Source: a virus. From it: a DNA stretch of 36,995 nucleotides. How positions within the stretch are numbered: position 1 is the stretch's first letter; each line of letters starts with the position of its first letter. A program made the translations under genes and the position numbers. The notes under the pieces are model-generated. The model was given only the letters and a program-made list of their open reading frames with translations, was not told where the DNA came from and did not search any database. Below, piece after piece: positions 1 through 19,701 of this stretch. The stretch lies in IMG/VR virus record IMGVR_UViG_3300025674_000142, positions 1-36,995 of that record; one strand, given 5' to 3'.

Positions 1-42
1 GAAGATTGTTGCCCAAATAATTATGGAGAAGATGATGAGTGA
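1..42 (+). CDS. 3' end of an unidentified gene (truncated by window edge)
   Basis: An open frame runs from the first base to a TGA at 40-42 and encodes the last 13 residues, EDCCPNNYGEDDE. It overlaps the start of the next gene (ATG at 35) by 8 nt, the same tight packing seen throughout this arm, which supports it being a real gene end. The tail is acidic with a Cys pair. Nothing more can be said about function. Confidence 0.45.
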   Translation, partial: EDCCPNNYGEDDE

Positions 43-277
43 ATATAAATACACATATAGATTTAGTGAGCAGACAGTAGATACTAGATACTACAAAGTA
101 GAATCTAATAAGAAACTAACCTATCATGAGATGCAAGATATAGCATGGTCAGCAGAGCAACTAGAAGGTAGTTCTTATAAAGATGAAGATGGTAAAGCTA
201 CCTTTGAAGGTACTGAGTATGGAGATGATGCACAGTATCAAATGGAAGAAGGACAGGAGGACTTAGTAGATGATTAA
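35..277 (+). CDS. small acidic hypothetical protein
   Basis: 80-residue protein, unrecognised. In-frame ATGs lie at 23, 32 and 35; the one at 35 is chosen because GGAG at 25-28 sits about 6 nt upstream, giving a start MSEYKYTYRF. The C-terminal half is strongly acidic (many D/E after about residue 45). No membrane segment, signal peptide or metal motif is visible. It overlaps the next gene (glutaredoxin, start 270) by 8 nt, so the two are probably co-translated. Function unknown. Confidence 0.75.
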   Translation: MSEYKYTYRFSEQTVDTRYYKVESNKKLTYHEMQDIAWSAEQLEGSSYKDEDGKATFEGTEYGDDAQYQMEEGQEDLVDD

Positions 278-509
278 ATATATTATATACACACAAAAGA
301 ATTGCGTATACTGTGCAGAGGCCAAGTCATTACTAGATGATATGGAAGAGGTATACGAAGAGAGGGTATTGGATACTAAAGAAAAGATAAAAAGATTTAA
401 AGAGGCCGGACATAAAACTGTACCACAAATCTTTCTACACATAGGAGGATTTCATGAACTAGAAGAGTTTATATTTGAAGGTAAAAAAAAGGAGAGAAAG
501 AATGACTAA
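270..509 (+). CDS. glutaredoxin
   Basis: 79-aa glutaredoxin-like thiol oxidoreductase. An N-terminal beta strand leads to the redox motif CVYC (C12, C15). The cis-proline motif TVP (residues 50-52) and a GG pair (59-60) before the last helix match the glutathione-binding fold, and the length is normal for a minimal glutaredoxin. By family, phage glutaredoxins (e.g. T4 NrdC) reduce ribonucleotide reductase, so a link to the class II RNR at 9780 is plausible but inferred. The lysine-rich C-terminus (EGKKKERKND) overlaps the start of the next gene. Confidence 0.9.
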   Translation: MIKYIIYTQKNCVYCAEAKSLLDDMEEVYEERVLDTKEKIKRFKEAGHKTVPQIFLHIGGFHELEEFIFEGKKKERKND

Positions 510-843
510 AGAATATTTTATAGACGAGCCTACATTTTTAGAATTAAGTTGTGAACTTGCAGATAGAATGTTACAGAAGAAGGCCGGCAAAGACTATGAT
601 AGTTTTATAACTGTAGATAAAAAAGGTGTGGAGATATATACTGATGAAGCACAATTATTATTTGAAGAATACCTACAAGAGGTTACAGATATTTTAATAT
701 TAAATAATATATGTCCAGATGATATTGAAGAAGATATAGAGTTTATGCCTGACTTAAAGTTGGTAGATGCTGTACAACCAGAAGCAAAGATACTACCATT
801 TAAAGGTAAGATAGGTGCTATCTCAGGAGATAAAGATGAGTAA
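502..843 (+). CDS. acidic hypothetical protein
   Basis: 113-aa protein of unknown function. The ATG at 502 is preferred over upstream starts because GGAGAGAAAGA lies directly before it, giving MTKEYFIDEP. The sequence is acidic, with a D/E-rich stretch near residues 80-95 (PDDIEEDIEFMPD), and shows no transmembrane segment or known motif. It overlaps the glutaredoxin gene upstream by 8 nt and the zinc-finger gene downstream by 8 nt, so it belongs to the same transcript. Confidence 0.75.
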   Translation: MTKEYFIDEPTFLELSCELADRMLQKKAGKDYDSFITVDKKGVEIYTDEAQLLFEEYLQEVTDILILNNICPDDIEEDIEFMPDLKLVDAVQPEAKILPFKGKIGAISGDKDE

Positions 844-1000
844 AAAAATTAAATGTCATAGATGTAAAAAGAATGAAGCATATCCAGAAGATATGGAGAA
901 CAATGCATCTAATCTTTTATTATGTGATGACTGCTATACAGAACTAAGATACTTAATGGCAGACTATTTAAATATAAATATTCAGGAGATTAATATATGA
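836..1000 (+). CDS. CxxC...CxxC zinc-finger miniprotein
   Basis: 54-aa protein with two CxxC pairs (C7/C10 in CHRC, C30/C33 in CDDC) about 20 residues apart, the pattern of a four-cysteine zinc ribbon. The ATG at 836 follows AGGAGA at 826-831 and gives MSKKIKCHRC. The C-terminus (residues 34-54) looks helical and hydrophobic. Such miniproteins often bind nucleic acid or host proteins, but no specific role can be assigned. It overlaps both neighbours by a few bases. Confidence 0.75.
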   Translation: MSKKIKCHRCKKNEAYPEDMENNASNLLLCDDCYTELRYLMADYLNINIQEINI

Positions 1001-1176
1001 GTAAAAGAATATTAAAAGCAGTAAGAGAAGCTAGCATATCTATAGCATCTTGTTTAGATGAACCTAGTGAAGTAACTAAAAAAGATTTAGAACATATACA
1101 AGACCAGATAACTAAGATAGAAAATTATTTAACACCTTTTTATTTAGAAGAGTTAGAGGAAATAAAGAATGAGTAA
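997..1176 (+). CDS. small helical hypothetical protein
   Basis: 59-aa open frame (MSKRILKAVR... to ...EEIKNE). Its start overlaps the previous stop as ATGA, and CAGGAGAT at 983-990 is a good ribosome-binding site. A basic N-terminus is followed by a charged, probably helical stretch (about residues 27-45) and an acidic tail. Not recognised. Overlapping starts on both sides and coding-like composition support it as a real gene in the early small-gene run. Confidence 0.65.
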   Translation: MSKRILKAVREASISIASCLDEPSEVTKKDLEHIQDQITKIENYLTPFYLEELEEIKNE

Positions 1177-1345
1177 ATTAAATTATAAAGAAATAAAACA
1201 ACGAATAAATGTTATTGAAGATAGGTATTACAAAGGTTGGAAACAATCTGAAGAATGGTGGAGAGTTACTGGAGATGTAAACTCAACCGATAGAAGATTA
1301 TGGACTTACTATCACAACCTATTGAATAGGAGTTGCATAGAATAA
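1169..1345 (+). CDS. small hypothetical protein, Trp/Tyr-rich
   Basis: 58-aa frame starting at ATG 1169, overlapping the upstream stop by 8 nt, with GAGGAAATAAAGA before it as ribosome-binding site. It contains five Trp and several Tyr (KGWKQSEEWWRV; RLWTYYHNLL) and is basic. Unrecognised; the aromatic/basic mix would fit a protein- or nucleic-acid-binding miniprotein, but that is speculation. A promoter at 1333-1361 overlaps its last codons, so this is probably the last gene of the first transcript segment. Confidence 0.65.
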   Translation: MSKLNYKEIKQRINVIEDRYYKGWKQSEEWWRVTGDVNSTDRRLWTYYHNLLNRSCIE

Positions 1346-1361
1346 ATATCTATGGTATAAT
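1333..1361 (+). promoter_or_regulatory. sigma70-type promoter, extended -10
   Basis: TTGCAT (1333-1338), a 17-nt spacer and TATAAT (1356-1361) preceded by TATGG, i.e. an extended -10 of form TATGNTATAAT. The same -35 hexamer and spacing recur at 11714-11742. It lies in the short gap between two small genes and would start transcripts near 1368 toward the genes at 1376/1485 and beyond. Confidence 0.7.
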
Positions 1362-1375
1362 AAGGATAGAAAATT

Positions 1376-1507
1376 ATGATAAAAATAAAACAAATAATTA
1401 GAGTACCTTATGTTGTGTTAAATAATTTACTTGACACAAGATATAGGAGAAAGATTATGAAGAAAAATAAAAGGAGAAAGAAAAATGTTTCTAATAGCAC
1501 ATTATAA
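1376..1507 (+). CDS. very basic small ORF (uncertain)
   Basis: 43-aa frame, MIKIKQIIRV... ending in a highly basic stretch KKNKRRKKN. If the promoter at 1333-1361 is used, the ATG at 1376 would sit only about 8 nt into the transcript. An in-frame ATG at 1457 has a better ribosome-binding site (AGGAGAAAG) and would give a 16-residue basic peptide. It overlaps the next gene (start 1485) by 23 nt. It may be a genuine basic miniprotein or only a leader region. Confidence 0.35.
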   Translation: MIKIKQIIRVPYVVLNNLLDTRYRRKIMKKNKRRKKNVSNSTL

Positions 1508-1697
1508 ATTTATGTCAAGTAAAAATTTAAGAAGGTGTGAATGGACTGAGAAATTTCCTATTGACCAATTAGTTGATGAAGAAAATAAAGTATTAACTTT
1601 TAAAACTGAGAAGGAAGCGAAGGAGGCAATGGTATCTTGGGGAGTTGATTTAGGTTTAGCCGAGGAGTCCGGTGTAGTGATAGAGAGAATACAATGA
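1485..1697 (+). CDS. small hypothetical protein
   Basis: 70-aa protein, start ATG 1485 after a strong AAGGAGAAAG site (1471-1480). It begins MFLIAHYKFMSSKNLRRCEW and has a mixed charged middle (TEKEAKEAMVSWG). No known motif. Its stop overlaps the next ATG as ATGA at 1694-1697. It is probably the first well-translated gene after the 1333-1361 promoter. Confidence 0.7.
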   Translation: MFLIAHYKFMSSKNLRRCEWTEKFPIDQLVDEENKVLTFKTEKEAKEAMVSWGVDLGLAEESGVVIERIQ

Positions 1698-1786
1698 TAT
1701 GTGCACAGTTCACATTATATTTTTTTCTTGGTGGAATTTTAGTAGGAATGTTTATAATTTTATTAGCTTATTTATTAGCTAGATAG
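1694..1786 (+). CDS. 30-aa single-TM membrane peptide
   Basis: Open frame MICAQFTLYF... ending LLAR, start overlapping the previous stop (ATGA). Residues 6-28 are almost entirely hydrophobic with two Gly (FFLGGILVGMFIILL), a clear membrane-spanning helix with an Arg at the end. GAGAGAAT lies upstream as ribosome-binding site. One of several membrane micropeptides in this region; such early phage peptides can act at the host membrane, but no function is assigned. Confidence 0.55.
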   Translation: MICAQFTLYFFLGGILVGMFIILLAYLLAR

Positions 1787-1794
1787 GAGTAACA

Positions 1795-2022
1795 ATGTAC
1801 GACCCAGTAGTATTAAATATATTAGAAAAGAATGTTAAGGATTTACAAGAACAATTAGTAAATGCTAACAAAAGAATTAAAAGATTAACAGACGAGAACT
1901 ATAAGTTAAGAAGAGAAATAGAATTAGTAAAAGATAATGGTAAAAGAATTATCAATGATAAAGGAAGTGCGTGGATAGGAGATGCTGAGATGCCTGATGC
2001 CGGCCATTTAAAAGATGAGTAG
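1795..2022 (+). CDS. coiled-coil hypothetical protein
   Basis: 75-aa protein starting at ATG 1795 after TAGGAGT. Residues about 8-48 show heptad-like spacing of hydrophobics between charged residues (ILEKNVKDLQEQL; RIKRLTDENYKLRREIEL), resembling a leucine-zipper coiled coil. The C-terminal 25 residues are glycine/acidic (SAWIGDAEMPDAG). It is likely an oligomerising protein; a DNA-binding bZIP-like function is not supported because no separate basic region stands out. Overlaps the next gene by 8 nt. Confidence 0.7.
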   Translation: MYDPVVLNILEKNVKDLQEQLVNANKRIKRLTDENYKLRREIELVKDNGKRIINDKGSAWIGDAEMPDAGHLKDE

Positions 2023-2155
2023 TGATAGAGATAGGAGATTAAAGGCTACAGGTTCTTGGTTTCAAAATCCAAAGAGAGTTAAATACTTATGGGTAAATAA
2101 TATATTTCCTATATTATTACTTGTAAGTTTATTTATTTTGTTATATAATTATTAG
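2015..2155 (+). CDS. 46-aa protein with C-terminal membrane anchor
   Basis: Open frame MSSDRDRRLK... ending in a hydrophobic helix (residues about 28-44, FPILLLVSLFILLY). The N-terminal half is basic and soluble, so it should sit on the cytoplasmic face, tail-anchored. The ATG at 2015 overlaps the upstream stop. Followed directly by TTAGGAGAATTAAG, the ribosome-binding site of the next gene. Unrecognised. Confidence 0.6.
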   Translation: MSSDRDRRLKATGSWFQNPKRVKYLWVNNIFPILLLVSLFILLYNY

Positions 2156-2165
2156 GAGAATTAAG

Positions 2166-2351
2166 ATGCAGAATCTTTGGGATAAAGATGAGAAGAGAAT
2201 GTACAGAAAATTATTTAAAGAATATAAACGAGAAGGTTGTTCAAATGAAGAGGCAAGTATGCTAGCGAAACAGGATTGTAAAAATAGTATTGGCCTTGAT
2301 ATTTATTCAGCAGAATTAGTATATAATAAAACTTTAAAAGATTTTGATTGA
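2166..2351 (+). CDS. small charged hypothetical protein
   Basis: 61-aa protein, start ATG 2166 after TAGGAGAATTAAG. Rich in K/R and D/E and predicted helical (KRMYRKLFKEYKREG; NEEASMLAKQD) with two Cys (residues 25 and 38). No membrane segment or recognised family. It is the last gene before the AT-only stretch and overlaps the -35 element of the promoter at 2348-2375. Confidence 0.7.
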   Translation: MQNLWDKDEKRMYRKLFKEYKREGCSNEEASMLAKQDCKNSIGLDIYSAELVYNKTLKDFD

Positions 2352-2375
2352 CATTATGAAAAAAGTTATTATAAT
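2348..2375 (+). promoter_or_regulatory. consensus sigma70 promoter upstream of the replication genes
   Basis: TTGACA (2348-2353), a 16-nt spacer and TATAAT (2370-2375): both hexamers match the consensus exactly. The predicted start near 2382 lies inside an 84-nt stretch without G or C and would transcribe the 2515 micropeptide and the helicase-primase. Confidence 0.65.
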
Positions 2376-2502
2376 AATTAAATATATATATAATATAATT
2401 AATAATTATTTATTAAAATATATAATAAATATATTTATATTATTAATATCCTTATGGGTATTATATATATTTATTATGATGATATATTATACATTTAAAT
2501 AA
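2356..2502 (+). CDS. possible 48-aa membrane peptide (may be spurious)
   Basis: Frame MKKVIIIIKY... ending MMIYYTFK, nearly all I, Y, N, L and K in the first half. That is what random reading of AT-only DNA gives, so coding is doubtful. No ribosome-binding site precedes ATG 2356, and the start lies upstream of the predicted transcription start of the 2348-2375 promoter. The second half (residues 26-45) is a convincing hydrophobic helix. An untranslated AT-rich regulatory or origin region is the alternative. Confidence 0.3.
   Translation: MKKVIIIIKYIYNIINNYLLKYIINIFILLISLWVLYIFIMMIYYTFK
2366..2449. other. 84-nt stretch with no G or C; candidate origin / unwinding element
   Basis: Every base from 2366 to 2449 is A or T, and the following 60 bases are also very AT-rich. 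It lies immediately upstream of the helicase-primase operon and carries the -10 of a consensus promoter. In T7 the primary origin is likewise an AT-rich segment downstream of promoters ahead of early replication genes (established knowledge); an origin role here is inference. No clear iterons were found. Confidence 0.45.
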
Positions 2503-2514
2503 AGGAATAAAAAT

Positions 2515-2592
2515 ATGTGGTTAGAAATATTAATAATATACACAGTAATATACACATTCATAGGGTTGAATAACTCTGCGAGTATGTTATAA
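2515..2592 (+). CDS. 25-aa membrane micropeptide, coupled to helicase-primase
   Basis: Frame MWLEILIIYTVIYTFIGL followed by NNSASML, start ATG 2515 after AAAGGAATAAAA. Residues 2-18 form a hydrophobic helix. Its TAA shares one base with the ATG of the helicase-primase (TAATG at 2590-2594). As the helicase ATG has no ribosome-binding site of its own, translation of this ORF probably delivers ribosomes to it. It may thus be a coupling leader, a membrane peptide, or both. Confidence 0.55.
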   Translation: MWLEILIIYTVIYTFIGLNNSASML

Positions 2593-2593
2593 T
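2566..2593 (+). promoter_or_regulatory. extended -10 promoter overlapping the helicase-primase start
   Basis: TTGAAT (2566-2571), a 16-nt spacer and TATAAT (2588-2593) preceded by TATGT, giving TATGTTATAAT, the same extended -10 form as at 1356, 7000 and 11737. The -10 contains the A and T of the full-length ATG (2592), so transcripts from it (start about 2600) could only make the shorter helicase form starting at 2724. Confidence 0.5.
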
Positions 2594-4232
2594 GCAAAGT
2601 AAATGGATAAGTAGAGGGAAGTGCCCATGTGGTAATTCCAGCAATGGATATAACATACATGCTGATGGTCATGCCTTCTGCTTCTCCTGTCAAAAACGAT
2701 TTAACAATGTAGGAGAGGCAAAAATGGAAGCGAAAGTTGTAGATATACAAAACAAAGTTTCAAGTACCGGTGATTATGGAGGTCTGGGAGATAGGAGAAT
2801 AACTGAACAGACTGCCAGAAAGTATAGGACAAAAATAAAAACGAATGGTTCTATTATTTCACATCACTACTATGAATATTATAACACTGAAGGTAGCCAT
2901 GTTGCTACTAAGGTACGACAAGTAGAAGGAAAAAGAATATGGTCTCAAGGAGATATGACTGATGCCTTATTGTTTGGACAGAATCTATTTAAATCTGGTG
3001 GTAAATATATTACTATCACTGAAGGTGAGATAGATGCCATGTCTGCTTATGAGATGTTAGGAAGTAAGTGGGCAGTAGTATCAATAAAGAATGGAGTTCA
3101 AAGTGCAGTGCAGAATTGTAAGCAACACCTAGAATACTTAAATACTTTTGAGAATGTGGTGGTTTGTTTTGACAATGACAAGCCTGGGATTGAAGCATCT
3201 CAAAAGGTTGCTCAGTTATTTGAACCTAACAAATGTAAGATTGTAAGACTAGAACACAAAGACCCTAATGAATATCAGAAGATGGGTAAGGCTAAAGACT
3301 TTATACAAAACTGGTGGAGTGCAGAAGCATACACACCGGCAGGTATAATGAACTTATCCAGACTAGGAGAATCATTATATGACGAGAAGGATTGTGAGAC
3401 TATACCTTATCCTTGGAGTGCCATGAATGAAAAAACATATGGCATGAGGACAGGAGAATTAGTTACCTTTACATCTGGTGCAGGCATGGGTAAGTCTTCT
3501 ATCATGCGTGAGTTAATGCATCACATACTTAGAAACTCTGGTGATAACATAGGTATATTAGCACTGGAAGAGAGTACAAAGAATACTGCATTTAATATTA
3601 TGTCAGTTGAGGCCAATGAAAGATTATACATCAAAGAGATAAGAAATAAATTCTCAAGAGAACAATTAAATAAATGGCAAGAAGACACGATAGGTTCTGG
3701 TAGGTTCTTTGCCTTTGACCACTTCGGTTCTATAGGTAATGATGAGATACTATCTAGAGTTAGATACATGGCAAAGTCTTTGGATTGTAAGTGGATATTC
3801 TTAGACCATTTATCTATCTTAGTTAGTGGACAAGATGATGGAGATGAGAGAAAATCTATTGATGTATTGATGACTAAGTTGCGTTCACTGGTAGAAGAAA
3901 CTGGTGTAGGTCTTCTCTTAGTATCACATCTGCGTAGACCTTCAGGAGATTTAGGCCATGAGAATGGTAAGGAAGTAACTCTATCACATCTAAGAGGTAG
4001 TGCTAGCATTGCACATCTATCCGATAGTGTGATAGCATTAGAAAGAAATCAACAGGCAGAAGATGATGTCATAGCTTGTACAACAACGATTCGTATTCTA
4101 AAAAATAGATACACAGGAGAGACAGGTGTATGTTCTTACTTGCATTATGATAAAAACTCTGGTAGAATGTCACAAATAGACAATCCTTTTGAAAATGATT
4201 TAGAAGGAACAACAACAGGAGTTCAATTATGA
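2592..4232 (+). CDS. T7 gp4-like DNA primase-helicase
   Basis: 546-aa replicative primase-helicase closely resembling T7 gp4 (566 aa). In order: zinc-binding domain with C11, C13, C30 and C33 (first pair CxC, not the CxxC of T7); Toprim primase with EGEID (E144-D148) and DNDKPG (D194, D196); RecA-like helicase with Walker A SGAGMGKSS (295-303), catalytic E326 in LALEES, Walker B IFLDH (D405), VSHLRRP, and LRGSA with SDSVIALERNQQ at the end. It unwinds the fork and primes lagging-strand synthesis for the polymerase at 4530. The start at 2592 is TAATG-coupled to the upstream micropeptide; an internal start at M45 (2724) has a strong site. The C-terminal tail is only mildly acidic and lacks the terminal Phe by which T7 gp4 contacts its polymerase. 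Confidence 0.95.
   Translation: MQSKWISRGKCPCGNSSNGYNIHADGHAFCFSCQKRFNNVGEAKMEAKVVDIQNKVSSTGDYGGLGDRRITEQTARKYRTKIKTNGSIISHHYYEYYNTEGSHVATKVRQVEGKRIWSQGDMTDALLFGQNLFKSGGKYITITEGEIDAMSAYEMLGSKWAVVSIKNGVQSAVQNCKQHLEYLNTFENVVVCFDNDKPGIEASQKVAQLFEPNKCKIVRLEHKDPNEYQKMGKAKDFIQNWWSAEAYTPAGIMNLSRLGESLYDEKDCETIPYPWSAMNEKTYGMRTGELVTFTSGAGMGKSSIMRELMHHILRNSGDNIGILALEESTKNTAFNIMSVEANERLYIKEIRNKFSREQLNKWQEDTIGSGRFFAFDHFGSIGNDEILSRVRYMAKSLDCKWIFLDHLSILVSGQDDGDERKSIDVLMTKLRSLVEETGVGLLLVSHLRRPSGDLGHENGKEVTLSHLRGSASIAHLSDSVIALERNQQAEDDVIACTTTIRILKNRYTGETGVCSYLHYDKNSGRMSQIDNPFENDLEGTTTGVQL
2711..2726 (+). promoter_or_regulatory. internal ribosome-binding site and start for a short helicase form
   Basis: AGGAGAGGCAAAA directly precedes ATG 2724 (M45 of the primase-helicase), in frame. 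The full-length ATG has no such site. Starting here removes the whole zinc-binding domain, the same architecture as T7 gp4B, which starts at M64 just after its zinc domain. The product would be 502 aa. Confidence 0.6.
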
Positions 4233-4546
4233 AATGTTATAACTGTGGAACAGAATTAACTTGGGGAGGAGACCATGATTGTGAAGAAGACGAAGACCAT
4301 GCTATAGTTACAAACTTATCTTGTCCTGAGTGTGAGGCTTTTCATTTAGTATATTGGGGTCACAAAGGAGAAGAAGAAGATAAACAACTTTGGATAAAAG
4401 GTTATAAAGAGTGGTTAGATAACAAAAAGGAAAAAGAACCAGAGATGTGGGAGCATTATTGTGATACAGAAAAAAGTATGATGGAAGTAGGTAAAGGAGA
4501 GCCTTGTAACTGGTGTGGAAAGGAAGAGAATGAAAGTAATCCTTGA
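4229..4546 (+). CDS. zinc-ribbon protein of unknown function
   Basis: 105-aa acidic protein with three CxxC pairs: CYNC (C3/C6), CPEC (C32/C35) and CNWC (C93/C96), plus C18 and C78, so one or two zinc ribbons are likely. Its ATG overlaps the helicase stop (ATGA) and its end overlaps the polymerase start, placing it inside the replisome operon. The middle (about residues 48-85) is charged and Trp-rich. Not recognised as a named family; a nucleic-acid or replisome accessory role is only suggested by position. Confidence 0.75.
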   Translation: MKCYNCGTELTWGGDHDCEEDEDHAIVTNLSCPECEAFHLVYWGHKGEEEDKQLWIKGYKEWLDNKKEKEPEMWEHYCDTEKSMMEVGKGEPCNWCGKEENESNP

Positions 4547-6176
4547 TATAGAAACAGATGGTTTTAATCCTAGTAAGATACATTGTATTGTAGCAAAGAA
4601 TGTAGATACTAATTTGGTTACTGTATTTGACCCAGATACTATGTATAGTTTTAATAGCTGGGCTAAGAAAGTAGATAAGTTTATCATGCATAATGGTTTA
4701 TCTTTTGATGCACCGGTTCTTAATAGGTTGTTAGGTACAGGAATAACACCAGATAAAATAATAGATACATTAATTTTGTCACAGTTATTTAATCCTATCA
4801 GAGAAAAAGGACATAGCCTTAGAGCATGGGGAGAAAAACTAAACATGCTTAAAGGTGGAGAAGATGTAAACTTTTCTAAGTATGATTTTAATATGTTGAA
4901 TTACTGTAAACAAGATGTAGAAATAACACATGCTGTCTATAATGAATTAGTAAAAGAAAGCAATGGTTTTTCTCAGGAGTCTTCAGACCTTGAACATAAT
5001 ATAAGATTAATACTAGACCAACAAGAGAAGAATGGTTTTGCTTTTGATATGATGAAGGCACAACAGTTATTAGCAAAACTAAAAGAAGATATCTATGACT
5101 TAGAACAATGGTCACTGGAAGAGTTTGAACCTACCATTGTAGAGATGAAGACTAAGACAAAAGAAATTCCTTTTAACATTGGCTCTCGTCAGCAGATAGC
5201 AGACAGGTTAATGAAGAAAGGTTGGAAGCCTAAACAGTTTACAGATAAAAAGAATATTATTATTAATGAAGCTGTTTTAAAAACAATTAAAGAGCCAGAG
5301 TTAAAACTTACTGCAGAAAGATTTTCAAAGTATTTTTTACTACAGAAAAGAGCAGTAATGGTAGAGTCTTGGATTGATGCCTGCGATAATGATAATAGGG
5401 TACATGGTAAAGTAATGACACTACGTACTATTACAGGTCGCATGGCACATAACTCACCTAACATGGCACAAGTACCGGCTGTATACTCACCATATGGTAA
5501 GGACTGCAGAGGGTTGTGGACTATATCAGACCCTATGAAATATAAATTAGTAGGTACTGATGCTAGTGGTTTAGAGTTACGTTGTCTTGCTCACTATCTT
5601 AATGATACAACTTATACTGATGAGATATTGAATGGAGATATACATACAAAGAACATGGAGCTAGCAGGCCTAGCAAATAGAGACCAGGCGAAGACATTTA
5701 TATATGCCTTTCTTTATGGAGCTGGTGCAGAGAAAATAGGTAAGATAGTAGGAGCTGGAAAGGAGCAGGGAAATAGTTTAATAAAAAGATTTCTATCTAA
5801 CTTACCATCACTAAGAAGATTAAGAGAACAAGTAGAAAGTGTAAGTAGAAGAGGTAAGATAAAAGCTATTGATGGAAGATACTTAAAAGTTAGAAGTCCA
5901 CATTCAGCATTGAATACTCTTCTGCAAGGAGCAGGTGCTATTGTTTGTAAGCAGTGGTTGTTACATATTATAACGAGGGTATATAATAAAAAACTTGATG
6001 CAAAATTAGTAGCTTCTGTTCATGATGAGTATCAATTTGAAGTGGCTAACAAAGATGTAAATGAATTTTGTAGTATCACTAAGATTGCTATGAAAGAAAC
6101 TGAGAAGACATTGAAGTTAAGATGTCCTTTAGATAACGATTACAAGGTAGGAGTAACATGGGCAGAAACACATTAG
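4530..6176 (+). CDS. T7-type family A DNA polymerase with 3'-5' exonuclease
   Basis: 548-aa replicative DNA polymerase. ATG 4530 is chosen over GTG 4515 because it puts DIETDGF right at the N-terminus, as in T7 gp5, after AGGAAGAG. Exonuclease motifs: D6/E8, NGLSFD (N55, D60) and YCKQD (Y125, D129). Polymerase motifs: A TDASGLELR (D344), B RDQAKTFIYAFLYG (R384, K388, Y392), C HDE (H498, D499). Tyr at 392 matches T7 Y526; Tyr/Phe here is associated with virulent phages. T7 gp5 is 704 aa; much of the difference lies in the thumb, where the 76-residue thioredoxin-binding insert is absent (only about 20 residues separate the flanking helices near 195-220). Processivity must be achieved otherwise. 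It sits downstream of primase-helicase and overlaps the next gene. Confidence 0.95.
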   Translation: MKVILDIETDGFNPSKIHCIVAKNVDTNLVTVFDPDTMYSFNSWAKKVDKFIMHNGLSFDAPVLNRLLGTGITPDKIIDTLILSQLFNPIREKGHSLRAWGEKLNMLKGGEDVNFSKYDFNMLNYCKQDVEITHAVYNELVKESNGFSQESSDLEHNIRLILDQQEKNGFAFDMMKAQQLLAKLKEDIYDLEQWSLEEFEPTIVEMKTKTKEIPFNIGSRQQIADRLMKKGWKPKQFTDKKNIIINEAVLKTIKEPELKLTAERFSKYFLLQKRAVMVESWIDACDNDNRVHGKVMTLRTITGRMAHNSPNMAQVPAVYSPYGKDCRGLWTISDPMKYKLVGTDASGLELRCLAHYLNDTTYTDEILNGDIHTKNMELAGLANRDQAKTFIYAFLYGAGAEKIGKIVGAGKEQGNSLIKRFLSNLPSLRRLREQVESVSRRGKIKAIDGRYLKVRSPHSALNTLLQGAGAIVCKQWLLHIITRVYNKKLDAKLVASVHDEYQFEVANKDVNEFCSITKIAMKETEKTLKLRCPLDNDYKVGVTWAETH

Positions 6177-6595
6177 AACCAAAGACAGAAGATAGAAAGA
6201 AGTTTGATTTAGATTTACAGTATGGGCAAGTAAAAGAAAAGATTGTTGCCGACATGCTACAAGATAAGAAGATAGAAGTAAAATCTGAAAGAGGTATGTG
6301 GTTAAAGACAGGTAACATTGCGATTGAATATGAAAGCTATGGTAAACCTAGTGGTATTAACGCAACCAAAGCAGACTACTGGTTTCATAATCTATGTGTG
6401 GGAGACCAAGTATATGGTACACTAGTATTTGAAACTAAGATGTTAAAGAGAATTGTTAATACATCTATCAATGAGAATCAAGTTAGAAGTGTATCTGGTG
6501 GAGACCATAATGCAAGTAAGATGTATCTAATGAATATACAGAATCTTTTTTCTCAAAATATAATTAAAAATTCAATAGGAGATATTAATGACTGA
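6158..6595 (+). CDS. PD-(D/E)XK-like nuclease or Holliday-junction-resolvase-like protein
   Basis: 145-aa protein starting at ATG 6158 after TAGGAGT, overlapping the polymerase stop. A helix (QVKEKIVADML, about 23-33, with E27) is followed by a strand carrying E40-V-K42 and a further strand (GNIAIEYE), the layout of small PD-(D/E)XK nucleases. The segment GKPSGINATKADYWF fits restriction/resolvase-type folds, in which the substrate is branched or double-stranded DNA. T7 carries its junction endonuclease (gp3) among replication genes, so position fits. The family assignment is from motif layout only. Confidence 0.55.
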   Translation: MGRNTLEPKTEDRKKFDLDLQYGQVKEKIVADMLQDKKIEVKSERGMWLKTGNIAIEYESYGKPSGINATKADYWFHNLCVGDQVYGTLVFETKMLKRIVNTSINENQVRSVSGGDHNASKMYLMNIQNLFSQNIIKNSIGDIND

Positions 6596-6968
6596 AGAAG
6601 AATTAAAAAAACAATATAATGAAGATTTAAAAAAAGAAAATAATCGTTTAAAGGTAGGAATTAAAACTAAAGATTTAGACTCTTTAAAAAAAGATTTAAT
6701 AGAACAGAGAGAAAAATATTTTACTCTAGTGGCATATGCTAGAGGTGTTTTTCCTGATATATCAAAAAAAATAGAAGATATATTTCCTCAAGAGACTAAA
6801 AAGTTTAAAAACTCTCCAGACTTTAATCATGGTTTTAACAGTGGATGTCTTGCTTCATTTCGTTTTATTCTTAATTTAATAGTAGAAGACCCTACTGGTG
6901 ATAATAAATATGATTACTTAAAAAATAAACTTGATGAATTAAAAGAGTTTCCAAAATTAAGTACATAA
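6588..6968 (+). CDS. hypothetical protein, helical
   Basis: 126-aa protein, start ATG 6588 after ATAGGAGAT, overlapping the upstream gene by 8 nt. The N-terminal 60 residues are charged and coiled-coil-like (LKKQYNEDLKKENNRLK; LDSLKKDLIEQREKYF); the rest has aromatic/hydrophobic segments (FNSGCLASFRFILNLIVEDP). No known motif. It is the last gene before the SSB promoter. Lower G+C and heavier Lys/Asn use than neighbours hint at a more recently acquired or weakly constrained gene. Confidence 0.7.
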   Translation: MTEEELKKQYNEDLKKENNRLKVGIKTKDLDSLKKDLIEQREKYFTLVAYARGVFPDISKKIEDIFPQETKKFKNSPDFNHGFNSGCLASFRFILNLIVEDPTGDNKYDYLKNKLDELKEFPKLST

Positions 6969-6975
6969 AAAAGTG

Positions 6976-7005
6976 TTGACAATGCATAGTAAAATATGCT
7001 ATAAT
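6976..7005 (+). promoter_or_regulatory. strong sigma70 promoter of the SSB gene
   Basis: TTGACA (6976-6981), an 18-nt spacer and TATAAT (7000-7005) with TATGC before it (extended -10). Both hexamers are consensus. It lies in the 66-nt gap between the hypothetical gene and the SSB gene; the predicted start near 7012 leaves a short leader with GGAGT before ATG 7034. Confidence 0.8.
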
Positions 7006-7033
7006 ATAATTTTATTAACAAAAAGGAGTACAC

Positions 7034-7504
7034 ATGAGTGTAATTAGTGGAACAGCTTATTGGGCGAGCATTACAAGCCCAAATACAACCTTTGATGCAG
7101 ATGGTACATGGAGTATTGATGTAGCTAATTTAGATGCAGATAACAAAGCTATCGCAGAGAAGGATGGTTTAATTATTAAAAACAAAGGTGATGACAGAGG
7201 AGACTTTGTTAACATTAAAAGAAACGTCAAGAGAAAAGATGGTAACTTAAATACTGCACCGGAAGTTCTTGATGCTCAGAAGAGAACTATGATGAGTACG
7301 TTAGTAGGTAATGGTTCTAAAGTAAATGTACTATACTCTACATATGAGTGGAAGTTTAAAGGGAGAGCTGGAGTATCAGCTGACCTGAAGAAAGTACAGG
7401 TAGTCGATTTAGTTCCTTATCAGGGTGATGCAGATGATGCATTTGATGTAGTACCTGATGGTTATTCTGCTGAAGCAGATGAAAAAATTCCTTTTGCCTC
7501 TTAA
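7034..7504 (+). CDS. gp2.5-like single-stranded DNA-binding protein
   Basis: 156-aa OB-fold ssDNA-binding protein of the type found in T7-like marine phages. The core has alternating beta strands and aromatic/basic residues (TAYWASITSP; DFVNIKRNVKRKDG; YEWKFKGRAG), and the C-terminal 25 residues are acidic (DADDAFDVVPDG), as expected for the tail by which T7 gp2.5 contacts polymerase and helicase. The last residues are IPFAS, so the terminal aromatic residue of T7 gp2.5 is only approximated by the Phe near the end. It has its own promoter (6976) and terminator (7515), consistent with the high amounts of SSB needed during replication. Confidence 0.8.
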   Translation: MSVISGTAYWASITSPNTTFDADGTWSIDVANLDADNKAIAEKDGLIIKNKGDDRGDFVNIKRNVKRKDGNLNTAPEVLDAQKRTMMSTLVGNGSKVNVLYSTYEWKFKGRAGVSADLKKVQVVDLVPYQGDADDAFDVVPDGYSAEADEKIPFAS

Positions 7505-7514
7505 CTAAAGGATA

Positions 7515-7551
7515 GTGGGAGACTGTTTGGCTGAGCAGTCTCTCACGTTTT
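7515..7551 (+). terminator. Rho-independent terminator after the SSB gene
   Basis: An 11-bp stem, GTGGGAGACTG (7515-7525) pairing with CAGTCTCTCAC (7536-7546) with one G-U pair, a 10-nt loop and then GTTTTA. The T-run is short (4 T), so some read-through to the exonuclease gene at 7556 is likely. Confidence 0.75.
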
Positions 7552-7555
7552 ATAT

Positions 7556-8413
7556 ATGAAAAAAATAGATACAATAGTAGAAGATATATATGGTTTGTTT
7601 GAGAAGAAGAACGAACATCTTACTGAGAAAGAAGTAGATAAATGTATAGATGATTTTGCTAGCTCGGTTAAAGTGCATGTAAAAGACTTCTTAAAACAGA
7701 TGCCTCAAGATAAACCTAGGTTAAGATTATCAACTATAGGTAGACCAGATAGGCAACTGTGGTATGATTTTAAACAGCCTCGCACCGAGTCTTTTCCACC
7801 TAGTACCAGGATTAAGTTTCTCTATGGTTATATCCTAGAAGAACTATTAATTATGCTTGCCTCTATCTCTGGACATAAGGTAACTCAACAACAGAAGCAA
7901 GTAGAAGTGGAAGGAGTTAAAGGACATCAAGATTGTTTTATAGATGACGTATTAGTAGATTGTAAGAGTGCCTCTGGTAGAGGATATAATAAATTTAAAT
8001 ATAATAATTTATCAACTGACGACCCTTTCGGATACATTCCTCAGATATCTGCATACGCAGAAGGTAATGGAGTAAATGAAGCCGGCTTTCTAGTTATTAA
8101 TAAATCTACAGGAGAACTATGTTATACAAAAGTACATTCATTGGAGATGATAAATGCTAAAGAAAGAGTTAAGAAGATTAAAGAAGTGGTTAAGTCTGAT
8201 ACTGCACCGGACAAATGCTACCCTGCTGTTGCTGATGGCAAGTCTGGGAATTATAAGCTTGCTACTGGTTGTATTTATTGTAGTCATAAGCATACTTGTT
8301 GGAGTGATGCTAATAGTGGTGAAGGACTTCGTGCTTTTAATTATTCAACTGGTAAAAGATATCTCACACATGTTGAGAAAGCACCTAACGTAGAGGAAGT
8401 ACATGATAAATAA
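7556..8413 (+). CDS. Cas4/RecB-like PD-(D/E)XK exonuclease with probable Fe-S cluster
   Basis: 285-aa nuclease. Motif I region GYILEELLI (E95/E96), motif II GHQD (H124, D126), motif III DCK (D135, K137) and the RecB-family QxxxY (Q163, Y167). The C-terminal cysteines C221, C239, C242 and C248 (GCIYC...TCW) match the Cys cluster that binds Fe-S in Cas4/AddB-type nucleases; an N-terminal Cys (C30) is also present. In T7-like phages this fills the place of the gp6 exonuclease, degrading host DNA and processing recombination ends. ATG 7556 directly follows the SSB terminator, and no strong ribosome-binding site is seen. The end overlaps the homing endonuclease by 11 nt. Confidence 0.85.
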   Translation: MKKIDTIVEDIYGLFEKKNEHLTEKEVDKCIDDFASSVKVHVKDFLKQMPQDKPRLRLSTIGRPDRQLWYDFKQPRTESFPPSTRIKFLYGYILEELLIMLASISGHKVTQQQKQVEVEGVKGHQDCFIDDVLVDCKSASGRGYNKFKYNNLSTDDPFGYIPQISAYAEGNGVNEAGFLVINKSTGELCYTKVHSLEMINAKERVKKIKEVVKSDTAPDKCYPAVADGKSGNYKLATGCIYCSHKHTCWSDANSGEGLRAFNYSTGKRYLTHVEKAPNVEEVHDK

Positions 8414-9104
8414 TCATTGGACTTGTTATGGCACAGAAAAATCTTTTGTGCCTAACGAGGATAAGTTTGGTTTTGTTTATATTATAACAAACACTAAGAA
8501 TGATAAAGCCTATGTAGGATGTAAACAATATTACATAGGTAAATCTAAGAAGCAATCTAGATGGCAGACTTATACAGGTTCTTCTAAATATTTAAATGAA
8601 GATATTAAAAAGATAGGTAAAAAATATTTTACATTTGAAGTAATAGCAGAGTATAAAAACAAAAGAAGTTTACGTTACTATGAGATGTACTATCAAGTAA
8701 AGTGGAATGTTCTTACTGCTACTATAGAAGGTAGTGATAATCCTGCATTTTATAATTCATATGTTGGTGGTAAGTTTTATAGACCTATTGAAAGTTATAT
8801 GCCTCATACAGAAGAAACTAAAATAAAAATGAGTAAAGCTCAAACAGGAGAAAAACATCCTCTGTATGGTAAAAAACATACAGAAGAAACTAAAAATAAA
8901 ATGCGTGAAGCTAAATTAGGAGAAAACAATTATTGGTATGGTAAAAAACATACAGAAGAAACTAAAAATAAAATGCGTGAAGCTCACACAGGAGAAGACA
9001 ATCCTATGTATGGTAAAAAACATACAGAAGAAGCTAAAAGAAAAATAAGTGAAGCTCGTTTAAAAAGAATAACAAAAGTAAAATATATTGACAATGAAGA
9101 ATGA
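8403..9104 (+). CDS. GIY-YIG homing endonuclease with NUMOD3 repeats
   Basis: 233-aa free-standing homing endonuclease. N-terminal GIY-YIG nuclease: VYI (25-27), YVG (37-39), catalytic Arg in SRWQTYTGSS (R53), catalytic Glu in RYYEMYYQ (E94) and the closing Asn (N118). From about residue 134 four tandem copies of a 24-residue NUMOD3 DNA-binding module follow (consensus YGKKHTEETKNKMREA). It would cut a specific DNA site and spread by repair. The ATG at 8403 has GAGGAAG upstream and overlaps the exonuclease stop; its end overlaps the next gene by 11 nt, so it is embedded in the operon without breaking a reading frame. Confidence 0.9.
   Translation: MINNHWTCYGTEKSFVPNEDKFGFVYIITNTKNDKAYVGCKQYYIGKSKKQSRWQTYTGSSKYLNEDIKKIGKKYFTFEVIAEYKNKRSLRYYEMYYQVKWNVLTATIEGSDNPAFYNSYVGGKFYRPIESYMPHTEETKIKMSKAQTGEKHPLYGKKHTEETKNKMREAKLGENNYWYGKKHTEETKNKMREAHTGEDNPMYGKKHTEEAKRKISEARLKRITKVKYIDNEE
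8864..9050 (+). repeat. 72-nt-period tandem repeats inside the homing endonuclease gene
   Basis: A 49-nt stretch at 8864-8912 recurs identically at 8936-8984, exactly 72 nt later; diverged copies precede (about 8805-8850) and follow (about 9008-9050). They encode the NUMOD3 modules. Perfect identity of the two middle copies suggests recent duplication or gene conversion. Confidence 0.85.
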
Positions 9105-9116
9105 ACCTGATATAAT
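9088..9116 (+). promoter_or_regulatory. consensus sigma70 promoter inside the 5' end of the HTH-like gene
   Basis: TTGACA (9088-9093), a 17-nt spacer and TATAAT (9111-9116) preceded by TGA: a full consensus match with optimal spacing. The start near 9123 lies downstream of ATG 9094, so the transcript would mainly serve the DUF3310 gene and the RNR. Confidence 0.6.
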
Positions 9117-9444
9117 ACAGATAGAAAACTTATTCTATTCTGAACCTTACAACTCAGAGAAGAGATTGTTTTTGTCTGTAATACTACAAGCATTATTAGA
9201 TGTATCAAAGAATGTTATTACATCTAATGATAAAGTAAACAAAGCACGAGCTGAGTCCTGGTTCTTTGCAGAGGTTGGAGTAACTTGCGAGAACTTTGAA
9301 ACAGTTTGTGGTATGGCAGGAGTAACACCAAGTAAAGCTAGGTCATTTGCTTACAAGGTTATTAGGGCAGACAATAAGAAGTTTTTAAGAAATAGAATAA
9401 GAAGTGTATTAAGAGGCGACAATGAAAAAGAAAATGACGTTTAA
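9094..9444 (+). CDS. HTH-like DNA-binding protein (putative)
   Basis: 116-aa protein. ATG 9094 is preferred over TTG 9088; it overlaps the homing endonuclease end. The stretch about residues 66-90 (NFETVCGMAGVTPSKARSF) reads as a helix-turn-helix, with AGV at the turn and a following recognition helix, and the C-terminus is basic (FLRNRIRSVLRG). It could be a phage transcription regulator acting on the promoters in this arm, but that is inference. No ribosome-binding site is seen, so translation may depend on coupling with the upstream gene. It overlaps the next gene by 23 nt. Confidence 0.6.
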   Translation: MKNEPDIIQIENLFYSEPYNSEKRLFLSVILQALLDVSKNVITSNDKVNKARAESWFFAEVGVTCENFETVCGMAGVTPSKARSFAYKVIRADNKKFLRNRIRSVLRGDNEKENDV

Positions 9445-9793
9445 AGAAAGTTTTTATAAATTATATTCTGATATGAGAAAGGTAGAAGAGGATAGAGATA
9501 TGGGACAAATGGATGAGGCAATAAGAGAGACAGTTAAACAACAAGGTTTTAAGAAAACAAATATAAAGAAGGAAGCTATTATAGCTACAGATAGACAGGT
9601 AGGTGGAGACCATTATAAGACTTGTAAGATACAGCCTGTTGATTATATTGTAGAAAATAACCTGACATTTCTTGAGGGTAATGTAGTAAAGTATATTACA
9701 AGACACAGAAGAAAAGGTGAAGGTGCTAATGACATTGAGAAAGTAATACATTATTGTGAACTAATATTGGAGAAAGATTATGGCAGGAAATAA
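9422..9793 (+). CDS. DUF3310 / T7 gp1.7-like nucleotide kinase
   Basis: 123-aa protein. Residues 58-117 match the DUF3310 pattern: GGDHYK (61-66), IQPVDYI (70-76), NNLTFLEGNVVKYITRH (79-95) and a lysine-rich, helical end (IEKVIHYCELIL). T7 gp1.7 has this domain and has been described as a nucleoside monophosphate kinase. The N-terminal 55 residues are charged and helical and outside the domain. Position directly before the RNR (14-nt overlap) supports a role in the dNTP supply. Confidence 0.8.
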   Translation: MKKKMTFKESFYKLYSDMRKVEEDRDMGQMDEAIRETVKQQGFKKTNIKKEAIIATDRQVGGDHYKTCKIQPVDYIVENNLTFLEGNVVKYITRHRRKGEGANDIEKVIHYCELILEKDYGRK

Positions 9794-11705
9794 CTATTTA
9801 CCTACAGAGTATCAGACATTTATACATGCGTCTAGATATGCACGTTGGTTAGAAGAAGAAGGTAGAAGAGAAACATGGATAGAAACAGTATCTAGATTTA
9901 GTAACTTCTTTCAAGGACATTTAGATAAAAATCTAGGTGTTGTCTTACCTCCAGAAGTATGGAGAAGAATAGAAGATAGTATTATAGGATTACAAGTTAT
10001 GCCTTCTATGAGAGCATTGATGACAGCAGGGCCTGCATTAGAAAGAGAAAACATCTCTGGATATAATTGTTCTTATACTCCTATAGATAGTCCACGTTCT
10101 TTTGATGAGATACTTTATATACTTATGAATGGTACAGGTGTAGGTTTCTCTGTTGAAAGAGAAGGAGTTTTAAAATTACCTACTATACCTCATAGAGAGT
10201 TTGAACAAACAGAAGATGTTATATCTATAGCTGATTCTAAAGAAGGATGGGCCAGAGGATTTAGAGATTTAATATCTTTTCTTTATACTAATAGAATACC
10301 TAAAGTAAATGTAAGTAAAGTAAGACCTGCAGGTGCTAGGTTAAATACTTTTGGTGGTAGGGCTAGTGGGCCTCAACCTTTAGTTAACCTAATTGATTTT
10401 ACTATTAATAAGTTTAAAGAAGCTAAAGGTAGAAAGTTATCTTCTATGGAGTGTCACGATATTGTGTGTAAGACTGGTGAAGTTGTGGTTGTTGGTGGTG
10501 TGCGTAGGTCAGCTCTTATATCTCTGTCTAATTTATCAGACCAGAGATTAAGAGTTGCTAAGTCTGGTGCTTGGTGGGAGACAAATCCTGAGAGAGCATT
10601 AGCTAATAACTCAGTAGCATATACAGAAAAACCTGATGTAGGTATGTTTATGAAAGAATGGTTAGCATTGTTTGAAAGTAAATCAGGTGAACGTGGTATC
10701 TTTAATAGAGCATCTGCTCAAGAAAAAGCTAAAGAAAATGGTAGACGTAAATCAGACTATGCTTTTGGTACTAATCCTTGTAGTGAGATTATACTTAGAC
10801 CTAATCAATTCTGTAACTTAACTGAGGTAGTATGTAGACCTGCTGATACAATAGAAACTTTAAAAGATAAGATAGAAGTAGCTACTATACTAGGTACAAT
10901 ACAAGCTACACTTACTAACTTTGGTTATCTAAGAAAGAGATGGAAAGATAATACAGAAGAAGAAAGATTATTAGGTGTATCATTAACAGGTATTATGGAT
11001 AATAGTATACTATCTAGAATGAGAAGTACGTTACCAGAAACACTACAAGACATGAAACAGAAAGCTGTGTCAGTAAACAAAGAGTGGTCAGAGAAGTTAG
11101 GTATACCACAATCAACAGCTATTACCTGTGTTAAACCTTCAGGTACAGTTAGTCAGTTAGTTGATAGTGCTAGTGGTATTCATGCTAGACATAACCCTTA
11201 CTATATTAGAACAGTAAGAGGAGATAAGAAAGACCCTTTAACAGAGTTTATGAAAGACCAGGGTATACCTTGTGAAGATGATGTAATGCAACCAAATAAT
11301 GCTGTGTTCTCTTTTCCTATGAAGGCAGATTCTAATGCTGTATTTAGAAATGATATGACAGCTATAGAACAGTTAGAGATATGGAAGTGTTATGCACAAC
11401 ATTGGTGTGAACATAAACCATCAGTAACTATATCAGTTAAAGAACATGAATGGGTTAATGTAGGTAACTGGTGTTGGAATAACTTTGATACATTATCTGG
11501 TATATCATTCTTACCTTTCTCTGACCATACATATCAACAAGCACCTTATCAAGATATAGATAAAGCTACATATGAAGAGCTTGCTTCTAAGATGCCGGAG
11601 AATATTAACTGGTCTGAGCTTAGTAAGTTTGAGAAAGAAGATACAACAAAAGGAGCACAAGAATTAGCATGTACTGCAGGTTCATGTGAGTTAGTAGATA
11701 TATAA
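9780..11705 (+). CDS. nrdJ: class II (adenosylcobalamin-dependent) ribonucleotide reductase, monomeric type
   Basis: 641-aa B12-dependent RNR similar to the Lactobacillus leichmannii triphosphate reductase (739 aa). Matches in order: YARWLEEEGR (20-30); NCSY with the first redox Cys (C97); FGGRASGP (191-198); NPCSEI with C334 and E336; CNLTE with C345 (C334 and C345 align with the reference pair that includes the radical and redox cysteines); KPSGTVSQL; and the C-terminal relay pair C631/C636 (CTAGSC). It makes dNTPs for phage DNA, without oxygen dependence but needing cobalamin from the host. It is shorter than the reference mainly between VGFSVER and EGWARG. ATG 9780 follows GGAGAAAG and overlaps the DUF3310 gene. 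Confidence 0.93.
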   Translation: MAGNNYLPTEYQTFIHASRYARWLEEEGRRETWIETVSRFSNFFQGHLDKNLGVVLPPEVWRRIEDSIIGLQVMPSMRALMTAGPALERENISGYNCSYTPIDSPRSFDEILYILMNGTGVGFSVEREGVLKLPTIPHREFEQTEDVISIADSKEGWARGFRDLISFLYTNRIPKVNVSKVRPAGARLNTFGGRASGPQPLVNLIDFTINKFKEAKGRKLSSMECHDIVCKTGEVVVVGGVRRSALISLSNLSDQRLRVAKSGAWWETNPERALANNSVAYTEKPDVGMFMKEWLALFESKSGERGIFNRASAQEKAKENGRRKSDYAFGTNPCSEIILRPNQFCNLTEVVCRPADTIETLKDKIEVATILGTIQATLTNFGYLRKRWKDNTEEERLLGVSLTGIMDNSILSRMRSTLPETLQDMKQKAVSVNKEWSEKLGIPQSTAITCVKPSGTVSQLVDSASGIHARHNPYYIRTVRGDKKDPLTEFMKDQGIPCEDDVMQPNNAVFSFPMKADSNAVFRNDMTAIEQLEIWKCYAQHWCEHKPSVTISVKEHEWVNVGNWCWNNFDTLSGISFLPFSDHTYQQAPYQDIDKATYEELASKMPENINWSELSKFEKEDTTKGAQELACTAGSCELVDI

Positions 11706-11713
11706 GTTTTTTG

Positions 11714-11742
11714 TTGCATTCATATAAAAAATATGTTATAAT
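11714..11742 (+). promoter_or_regulatory. extended -10 promoter before the exported-protein gene
   Basis: TTGCAT (11714-11719), a 17-nt spacer and TATAAT (11737-11742) preceded by TATGT (TATGTTATAAT). It has the same -35 and spacing as at 1333-1361. It occupies the 71-nt gap after the RNR, one of the few real intergenic gaps in this arm; predicted start about 11749. Confidence 0.75.
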
Positions 11743-11776
11743 AGTAGTATTATAAAAAATAATAAAAAGGAAAAAC

Positions 11777-12025
11777 ATGAAAATAATTTTAGTATTAATA
11801 ATAAGTTTATTTACATTACAATTAAAAGCAGACCCTTGGTTTGATTCAATAGGTTATAGGTATTATCATGATATGGATAATGAACGTAATGGTTCTAAGT
11901 TTAGAAGTTATTTAAAAAAGAAAATGTCTAATGGTAATAACTTAAAGATTGCATATGAAAGAACTAGAAGTGGTATGGGTATGGAAGCAGGTACTGCATT
12001 TATTGATTATGAATTTAAGTTCTAG
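11777..12025 (+). CDS. small exported, possibly outer-membrane-associated protein
   Basis: 82-aa protein with a clear Sec signal peptide: MKIILVLIISLFTLQLKA, cleavage expected after A18 before DPWF. The mature 64 residues contain alternating polar/hydrophobic strands (NLKIAYERTR; GTAFIDYEFKF) and end in Phe, features of outer-membrane beta-strand proteins, though too short for a full barrel alone. Start ATG 11777 after AAAGGAAAAA, under its own promoter. Possible roles are superinfection exclusion at the outer membrane or lysis assistance; neither can be proven here. Downstream are surface-sugar genes. Confidence 0.75.
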   Translation: MKIILVLIISLFTLQLKADPWFDSIGYRYYHDMDNERNGSKFRSYLKKKMSNGNNLKIAYERTRSGMGMEAGTAFIDYEFKF

Positions 12026-12033
12026 GAGACAAG

Positions 12034-12822: not shown

Positions 12823-13046
12823 GAGAACTATCAGACACATTATATAAATCATTGAGATGTCATTATAAAGCTGAAGTTAATAGAGCATTATATCAACTTG
12901 ATTTAGCATTTCAAAAACCGGTGGCAATAGGAGAACATCCAAAGATAGTAGAAGATTCTATTGTATTAATAAAACAATTAGCTGAAGCTGAAGAAGCTTT
13001 ACAAACATTAGAGAATAACTTTGGAGCATATAATGAAAAAAGTTAA
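12819..13046 (+). CDS. small helical hypothetical protein
   Basis: 75-aa protein overlapping the glycosyltransferase stop (ATGA at 12819) and the next gene's start. Two probable helices (KAEVNRALYQLDLAF; IVLIKQLAEAEEALQTLEN) suggest a helical hairpin or coiled coil. Not recognised. Located between two sugar-transfer genes, it could be an accessory subunit, but this rests on position only. Confidence 0.65.
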   Translation: MRELSDTLYKSLRCHYKAEVNRALYQLDLAFQKPVAIGEHPKIVEDSIVLIKQLAEAEEALQTLENNFGAYNEKS

Positions 13047-15973: not shown

Positions 15974-15974
15974 T

Positions 15975-16373: not shown

Positions 16374-16576
16374 AGAAGAAGGTTATTGTTGAAGTGAGTA
16401 TAGAAGAACCATTATGGGACATGTATAATGAATACTCATGTAATCAAATAAAATTAAAGTTTAAAAATACTAGAAAAACTAATAAGCCTGTTATTAATCA
16501 TAGTATATGGATACCAAAAACTTATGAAGAATGGTTTAATAAAATAAAATTTCCCAAGGAGGGACAAAAAAAATGA
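16370..16576 (+). CDS. small basic hypothetical protein (GTG start)
   Basis: 68-aa frame starting with GTG 16370, overlapping the holin stop as GTGA, hence probably translated by coupling; no ribosome-binding site is seen. Basic throughout (KKKVIVEVSIEEP; LKFKNTRKTNKP; FPKEGQKK) with several Trp, no membrane segment. Not recognised. It overlaps the next start. Confidence 0.6.
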   Translation: MKKKVIVEVSIEEPLWDMYNEYSCNQIKLKFKNTRKTNKPVINHSIWIPKTYEEWFNKIKFPKEGQKK

Positions 16577-17006: not shown

Positions 17007-17007
17007 T

Positions 17008-17859: not shown

Positions 17860-17883
17860 GTTTGCCTCTTAATTCTTAATGGA

Positions 17884-19700: not shown

Positions 19701-19701
19701 C

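Follow-up and report, generated by a model that had tools for sequence, protein, structure and literature searches.

The virus record IMGVR_UViG_3300025674_000142 (IMG/VR) was analysed over positions 1 to 36,995, and this whole stretch of 36,995 nucleotides is called the window here. The subject is a sigma70-type promoter and the A/T-only DNA behind it, which lie among small open reading frames (ORFs) ahead of a gene for a fused primase-helicase (Table 1). The promoter lies across the junction of two small genes, ORF0 and ORF1, and AT-saturated DNA follows its -10 hexamer directly, in the window's clade as well as in its sister clade; in the window's clade the AT-only DNA is the variable N-terminal half of ORF1, of which the C-terminal half is conserved. 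As a whole, the locus is read with middling confidence as a helicase-primase promoter with an AT-saturated leader that would double as a membrane-peptide gene in a marine phage and would not be the main replication origin.

Table 1 Features of the promoter-helicase region and two further promoters in the window
Feature	Positions	Strand	Basis or remarks
ORF0, upstream gene, 61 aa, MQNLWDKDEKR...	2166..2351	+	Similar gene in sister clade; stop codon inside -35 hexamer
Sigma70-type promoter TTGACA-N16-TATAAT	2348..2375	+	Overlaps stop codon of upstream gene and start of ORF1; hexamers and spacing identical in 55/55 close loci
ORF1, 48-aa hydrophobic peptide, one likely membrane span	2356..2502	+	In-frame TTG at 2344 as alternative start; N-terminal half AT-only and variable, C-terminal half conserved
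A/T-only run, 84 nt	2366..2449		Direct reading, simulations
AT-saturated segment, -10 region to end of ORF1	2366..2502		GC content, stability
ORF2, 25-aa hydrophobic peptide	2515..2592	+	AAAGGA upstream; stop overlaps helicase start codon
Fused primase-helicase, phrog_239, Toprim and DnaB_C	2592..4232	+	Profile matches
Second perfect promoter, 18-nt spacer	6976..7005	+	Ahead of gene at 7034 for gp2.5-like single-stranded DNA-binding protein (SSB)
Third perfect promoter, 17-nt spacer	9088..9116	+	Sequence match

On direct reading of the window the -35 hexamer TTGACA occupies 2348-2353, the spacer 2354-2369 (16 nt) and the -10 hexamer TATAAT 2370-2375, and the 84 nt of 2366-2449 contain no G or C; the first-pass annotation, made by a model from the sequence alone, had reported this run with a perfect promoter at its edge ahead of replication genes, and the report was exact. 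The second-longest A/T-only run of the window measures 36 nt, and the longest runs in simulated sequences were 29, 31 and 37 nt for Markov orders 1, 2 and 5 (100 sequences each, 300 in total). Of all 100-bp stretches in the window, 2370-2469 has the lowest stability by nearest-neighbour energy (z = 5.4, reflecting composition only), and the GC content is 6.3% over 2376-2502 versus 25.8% over 2503-2591. Taken on its own, the promoter match hardly exceeds chance: a search with one mismatch allowed gave two matches each for the patterns with 16-nt and 17-nt spacers (1.09 and 1.25 expected), and weaker promoter-like matches over 1-19000 numbered 96 versus 98.2 in shuffled sequences. Its weight lies in its conservation in all 55 close loci. 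The window has three promoters that match at 12 of 12 positions with spacers of 16-18 nt (2348, 6976 and 9088), and no long AT-only tract follows either of the last two. Both have counterparts at similar spacing in contigs G001, G004 and G007, and they look like one promoter set.

The comparison covered 80 helicase relatives, 58 of them close (at least 87%); the region was present in 54 of these and in the window, the other four being truncated upstream or at the 5' end. The perfect promoter was found in all of the resulting 55 loci (31 distinct sequences). In a wider survey of 301 loci with a match, 274 were kept after 18 with less than 350 nt upstream and nine with a cut 5' end had been dropped, and a tract was scored where A/T-only DNA extended for 25 nt or more beyond the -10 hexamer of the promoter. 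Counted by loci, promoter and tract were present together in 50/54 of the window's clade, 17/18 of the L059 clade, 7/124 of the L070 group and 0/78 of the L080 group. Some loci represent one contig twice (e.g. L072 and L111) and counts per 95% helicase cluster are therefore preferred; these were 10/11, 6/6, 2/41 and 0/8, respectively, which leaves the tract in two of 49 clusters outside the first two clades. One locus, L117, was scored as 11 nt in the survey because a single base breaks the run, and a 60-nt run is present there. As a control, promoter-like sites (at least ten of 12 positions) located downstream in the same loci were followed by a tract in 4/472 cases, the sites not being dereplicated. 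The L059 clade is the sister of the window's clade (99/99 support), and in the 15 of its loci that were examined the tract measures 44-69 nt. Extra genes part the promoter and AT tract from the helicase in L069 (57 nt) and L070 (a shorter, 30-nt run). Among named phages, HTVC115P has AT runs of up to 35 nt between gp22 and the SSB gene, and no A/T-only run of at least 25 nt was present in the stretches of HTVC103P, HTVC134P and CRP-361 that were compared; HTVC027P and HTVC023P were set aside for this purpose because their gene order is too different.

The frame of ORF1 is open in 31/31 distinct sequences from the 55 loci, ending at a stop that follows ...YYTFK, and the lengths differ by multiples of three. 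It starts with ATG in 20 of the 31, and the other 11 have TTG in the same frame, two codons ahead of GAC in the -35 hexamer. The ratio of nonsynonymous to synonymous differences (pN/pS) is 0.26 in the C-terminal half and 0.85 in the AT-only N-terminal half, both being uncorrected sums over all pairs that ignore relatedness. The likely membrane span is predicted at residues 23-41 (hydropathy 2.73). By these tests ORF1 is a real conserved reading frame with an AT-only part under little peptide constraint, as far as can be judged from sequence comparison. The dismissal of this ORF in the first-pass annotation as mere low-complexity translation is refuted by the open frames, the kept starts and the C-terminal pN/pS. 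The same annotation had held that a conserved peptide over 2356-2502 would tell against it; such conservation was found in the C-terminal half and is missing from the AT-only half. As to a check that it suggested, conservation of AT-only DNA rather than of the peptide in relatives, the sister-clade tracts without an ORF described below indicate that the AT-only DNA is not bound up with any single peptide. An ORF2-like frame is present in 30/31 distinct sequences. In all, four tiny hydrophobic peptides precede the helicase (1694-1783, 2015-2155, 2356-2502 and 2515-2592), and an ORF similar to the one at 2015-2155 (RRLKATGSWFQ...) occurs in several loci of the L080 group. Upstream of the helicase in L034 there is an apparent short duplication of the segment formed by the end of ORF1 and the start of ORF2.

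Whether the A/T composition is itself kept was assessed from codon use. In the window all 40 codons of ORF1 for F, I, K, L, N and Y are A/T-only. Over the 31 sequences, codons for F, I, K, N and Y that contain G or C number 18/567 in the N-terminal and 4/405 in the C-terminal part of ORF1, compared with 115/691 in the upstream gene, 56/215 in ORF2 and 1337/4457 in the helicase. The expectation derived from the helicase (23 observed versus 158.8) overstates the avoidance of G and C, as G/C codons are commoner in the helicase than in the genome's genes on average. When ORF1 was recoded with the window's own codon use, the observed G+C lay below expectation in 14/14 representatives of the 31 sequences, with single-sequence probabilities of 0.03-0.31 (codon use of large genes) and 0.006-0.18 (small genes). 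Given this low significance, the AT-only run mostly follows from the amino acids used, with a modest extra bias. Neutral slippage of AT sequence in an AT-rich phage, without any function, fits the low complexity of the tract; when the peptide was recoded with the window's codon use, a run of at least 84 nt appeared with a probability of about 0.4-1.5% (83 and 306 of 20000), and composition and peptide thus explain much of the run. The neutral account is nevertheless given a low probability, since the frame is open in every distinct sequence although TAA should be common in random A/T, and since the tract recurs at the same place behind the promoter in two clades, compared with its rarity at the control sites.

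A role at the RNA level was also considered, in which the AU-only segment would serve the helicase operon as an unstructured leader for translation or RNase cleavage. In L059-L063 the AU-only leader does reach almost to the ribosome-binding site of the helicase. Against this, two ORFs separate promoter and helicase in the window's clade, and the folding energy of the leader showed no consistent difference from dinucleotide shuffles in the 31 sequences (z averaging -0.47 and ranging from -1.96 to 1.22), and the proposal is likewise placed at a low probability, comparable to that of neutral slippage. A known RNA element was rejected as a candidate: Rfam returned only a mir-137 match at 2085-2128 with 27.5 bits (gathering threshold 56.7), which was taken as chance.

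In the preferred reading, host RNA polymerase would start near 2382, the AT-only leader would melt easily, and the transcript would cover ORF2, the helicase-primase and the polymerase. The start codons of ORF1 precede this putative start site, so that ORF1 would need translation from upstream transcripts; its translation is possibly coupled to that of ORF0. As the N-terminal peptide appears almost unconstrained, the DNA could stay A/T-only and easily melted, and the run would persist. Several observations weigh against this reading. The start site near 2382 is placed from the consensus alone. By eye, no obvious Shine-Dalgarno sequence precedes 2344 or 2356, and ORF1 gave no match in PHROGs up to E = 1 or in Pfam up to E = 0.1. 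The synonymous G/C deficit hints, weakly, at additional selection on the DNA. Finally, no plus-strand ORF of at least 20 aa crosses the tract in nine of the 15 sister-clade loci, and a peptide alone therefore would not account for the tract. Between the two sister clades it is the AT-only leader, rather than the peptide, that is the more constant element. The remaining six loci carry a plus-strand frame of at least 20 aa, hydrophobic as is expected of AT-only DNA and starting with ATG in L117 and with TTG in L064, L065, L067, L115 and L109; the distribution fits a gain of ORF1 in the window's clade equally with a loss in parts of the sister clade. The frames of L117 and L064, which lie immediately before the helicase (MKKFLTKDNKCSNILLYILL..., with the ATG and TTG starts just given), may be relatives of ORF1 or independent look-alikes.

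De novo membrane peptides arising from thymine-rich noncoding DNA are described for yeast by Vakirlis et al. (2020; PMC7005711). The locus resembles that case in having a hydrophobic one-span peptide encoded by AT-only DNA, next to nine sister-clade tracts without a plus-strand ORF; it differs in belonging to a phage rather than to yeast and in that the other six sister-clade loci do carry a hydrophobic frame. Part of the interest of the locus lies in this juxtaposition of a membrane peptide read from AT-only DNA with relatives whose tract has no plus-strand ORF.

The persistence of the tract without an ORF would also suit an auxiliary transcription-primed origin like oriF and oriG of phage T4, in which the promoter transcript would form an R-loop over the AT-only element and prime the leading strand with its 3' end while the displaced strand would load the helicase-primase. 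In 10/15 contigs the lowest 100-bp stability falls at the promoter-AT site, which ranks second or tied in four and outside the top four in one; the terminase side discussed below is absent from most of these contigs. The tract also stays with the promoter where extra genes part the latter from the helicase (L069 and L070), and the two other perfect promoters of the window have no AT-only tract. Speaking against such an origin are the near-absence of the tract outside the two sister clades (2/49 clusters) and the lack of a strand switch or skew turn nearby; moreover, AT-only RNA:DNA hybrids are weak. This possibility is regarded as tentative and rather unlikely. The likeness in sequence to oriF and oriG (PMC3016281) consists in a promoter with a sigma70-type -10 hexamer and, immediately behind it, about 100 bp of AT-rich DNA that melts easily. 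T4 differs in its MotA-dependent promoters, where the -35 element here is a plain TTGACA, and in its replisome, and the tract described here encodes a peptide and is found mainly in two clades. The T4 origins oriE, oriF and oriG lie near a switch of the transcribed strand, which the same text does not say of oriA and oriC; here the nearest switch is about 8 kb upstream. That figure refers to long genes in G001, a 93-aa minus-strand ORF (9863-10144) that overlaps plus-strand ORFs having been set aside. A search for iterons near the tract gave just one pair of 12-nt direct repeats (2534-2557) and imperfect AT palindromes. The combined version, in which a marine phage that has a T7-like replisome but lacks its own RNA polymerase would use an auxiliary T4-oriF-like origin primed by the host polymerase, with an unwinding element that also encodes a membrane microprotein, so that a single stretch of DNA would be both melting element and gene, is considered improbable.

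The first-pass annotation had compared the order of promoter, AT-only DNA and helicase-primase to the primary origin of phage T7. In T7 this origin has promoters ahead of an AT-rich cluster. The cluster is placed at 3761-3821 in PMC12839067. The order itself is real and is kept in both sister clades, and the likeness extends to the T7-like replisome, with a primase-helicase of phrog_239, a DNA polymerase and a gp2.5-like SSB. The identification with a T7 primary origin, which would call for a promoter of a phage RNA polymerase, did not hold up and is judged highly improbable: PF00940 (RNA_pol) was found in 0/20 records, comprising the window and contigs of 19 relatives, all of which may be fragments, while the same search was positive in two of four reference phages (HTVC134P and CRP-361, Autographiviridae; built-in controls 0/14). 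Furthermore, the promoter has a host-type sigma70 consensus, and the tract stands directly ahead of the helicase and is not family-wide, being present in 2/49 outside clusters. A structural protein of the window is shared at 33% identity with the pelagiphage HTVC027P. The latter is stated in PMC12753301 to have no single-subunit RNA polymerase either and to depend on that of its host. None of the titles and abstracts listed in the literature searches dealt with a replication origin of pelagiphages.

Cumulative GC skew, which had been suggested in the first-pass annotation as a check, shows no turn near the helicase tract. Within the window the skew follows gene orientation, turning at about 17 kb, and so does not locate an origin. 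In 10/10 contigs that hold the terminase gene (11 contigs scanned; a further terminase contig, G030, was outside this comparison) the cumulative minimum is at most about 0.8 kb from the terminase 5' end; gene orientation confounds this pattern. The same end has one of the four least stable 100-bp windows no more than about 0.5 kb away in 10/10 contigs from all four groups, contigs without the helicase tract included. In G001 (46 kb; helicase 99.6% identical) the terminase gene on the minus strand and the early genes on the plus strand are separated by 610 bp with a GC content of 23.3% (L086, 5726-6335), which contain two A/T-only runs (50 and 37 nt) and the skew minimum; this region lies about 8 kb upstream of the helicase and outside the window, and one 100-bp window in it is less stable than the helicase tract (-83.8 versus -85.8). 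In the nine other contigs examined, too, an AT-rich stretch that includes the skew minimum is found on this side of the terminase.

These features support the proposal that the main origin is the AT-rich noncoding region 5' of the terminase gene, towards the early genes, and that the helicase tract has no replication role. Counting against it, besides the confounded skew, are the position of the minimum just inside the terminase in G028 and G034 and near the contig end in G022, the minus-strand ORF (19304-20257) between terminase and plus-strand genes in G002, which leaves the region not strictly divergent, and the fact that such regions also carry early promoters and packaging signals. The proposal is credited with slightly less than an even prospect, and the 610-bp region of G001 is a candidate for either the main origin or an early control region. 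On the evidence of these comparisons the main origin of the phage is more likely to lie elsewhere than at the helicase tract. The probabilities attached to the alternatives are judgements and overlap, and an origin on the terminase side can be compatible with the preferred reading of the helicase tract as promoter, leader and peptide gene. Two concrete candidate sites for an origin are thereby named, the helicase tract and the terminase side, which bears on how replication begins in phages whose replisome is T7-like but which lack their own RNA polymerase.

A palindrome, ATAGGAAAAACCTAT, occurs five times within about 2.5 kb of the terminase in G002, once in G001 (as the reverse complement) and once in G006. 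Individual sites are at 18377, 18437 and 18664 of L089, at 344 and 510 of L090 (20344 and 20510 of G002) and at 6275 of L086. The looser pattern ATAGG-N5-CCTAT was also found in G034, G028 and G020, and these sites are iteron- or operator-like.

In the remainder of the window the primase-helicase gene is followed by that of the DNA polymerase and, further on, by those of the gp2.5-like SSB, an exonuclease and a ribonucleotide reductase; from about 17.4 kb the genes, those for virion proteins among them, are on the other strand. Positions 1-12000 gave no nucleotide match in the phage collection, from which very near records may have been left out, and the best-ranked named helicase is 47.6% identical, all 3405 records being below 60%. 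Two further proteins were noted, a 771-aa protein with an MptE-like domain (PF01973) at 13021-15336 and a GTA-type 3TM holin (PF11351) at 15975-16373.
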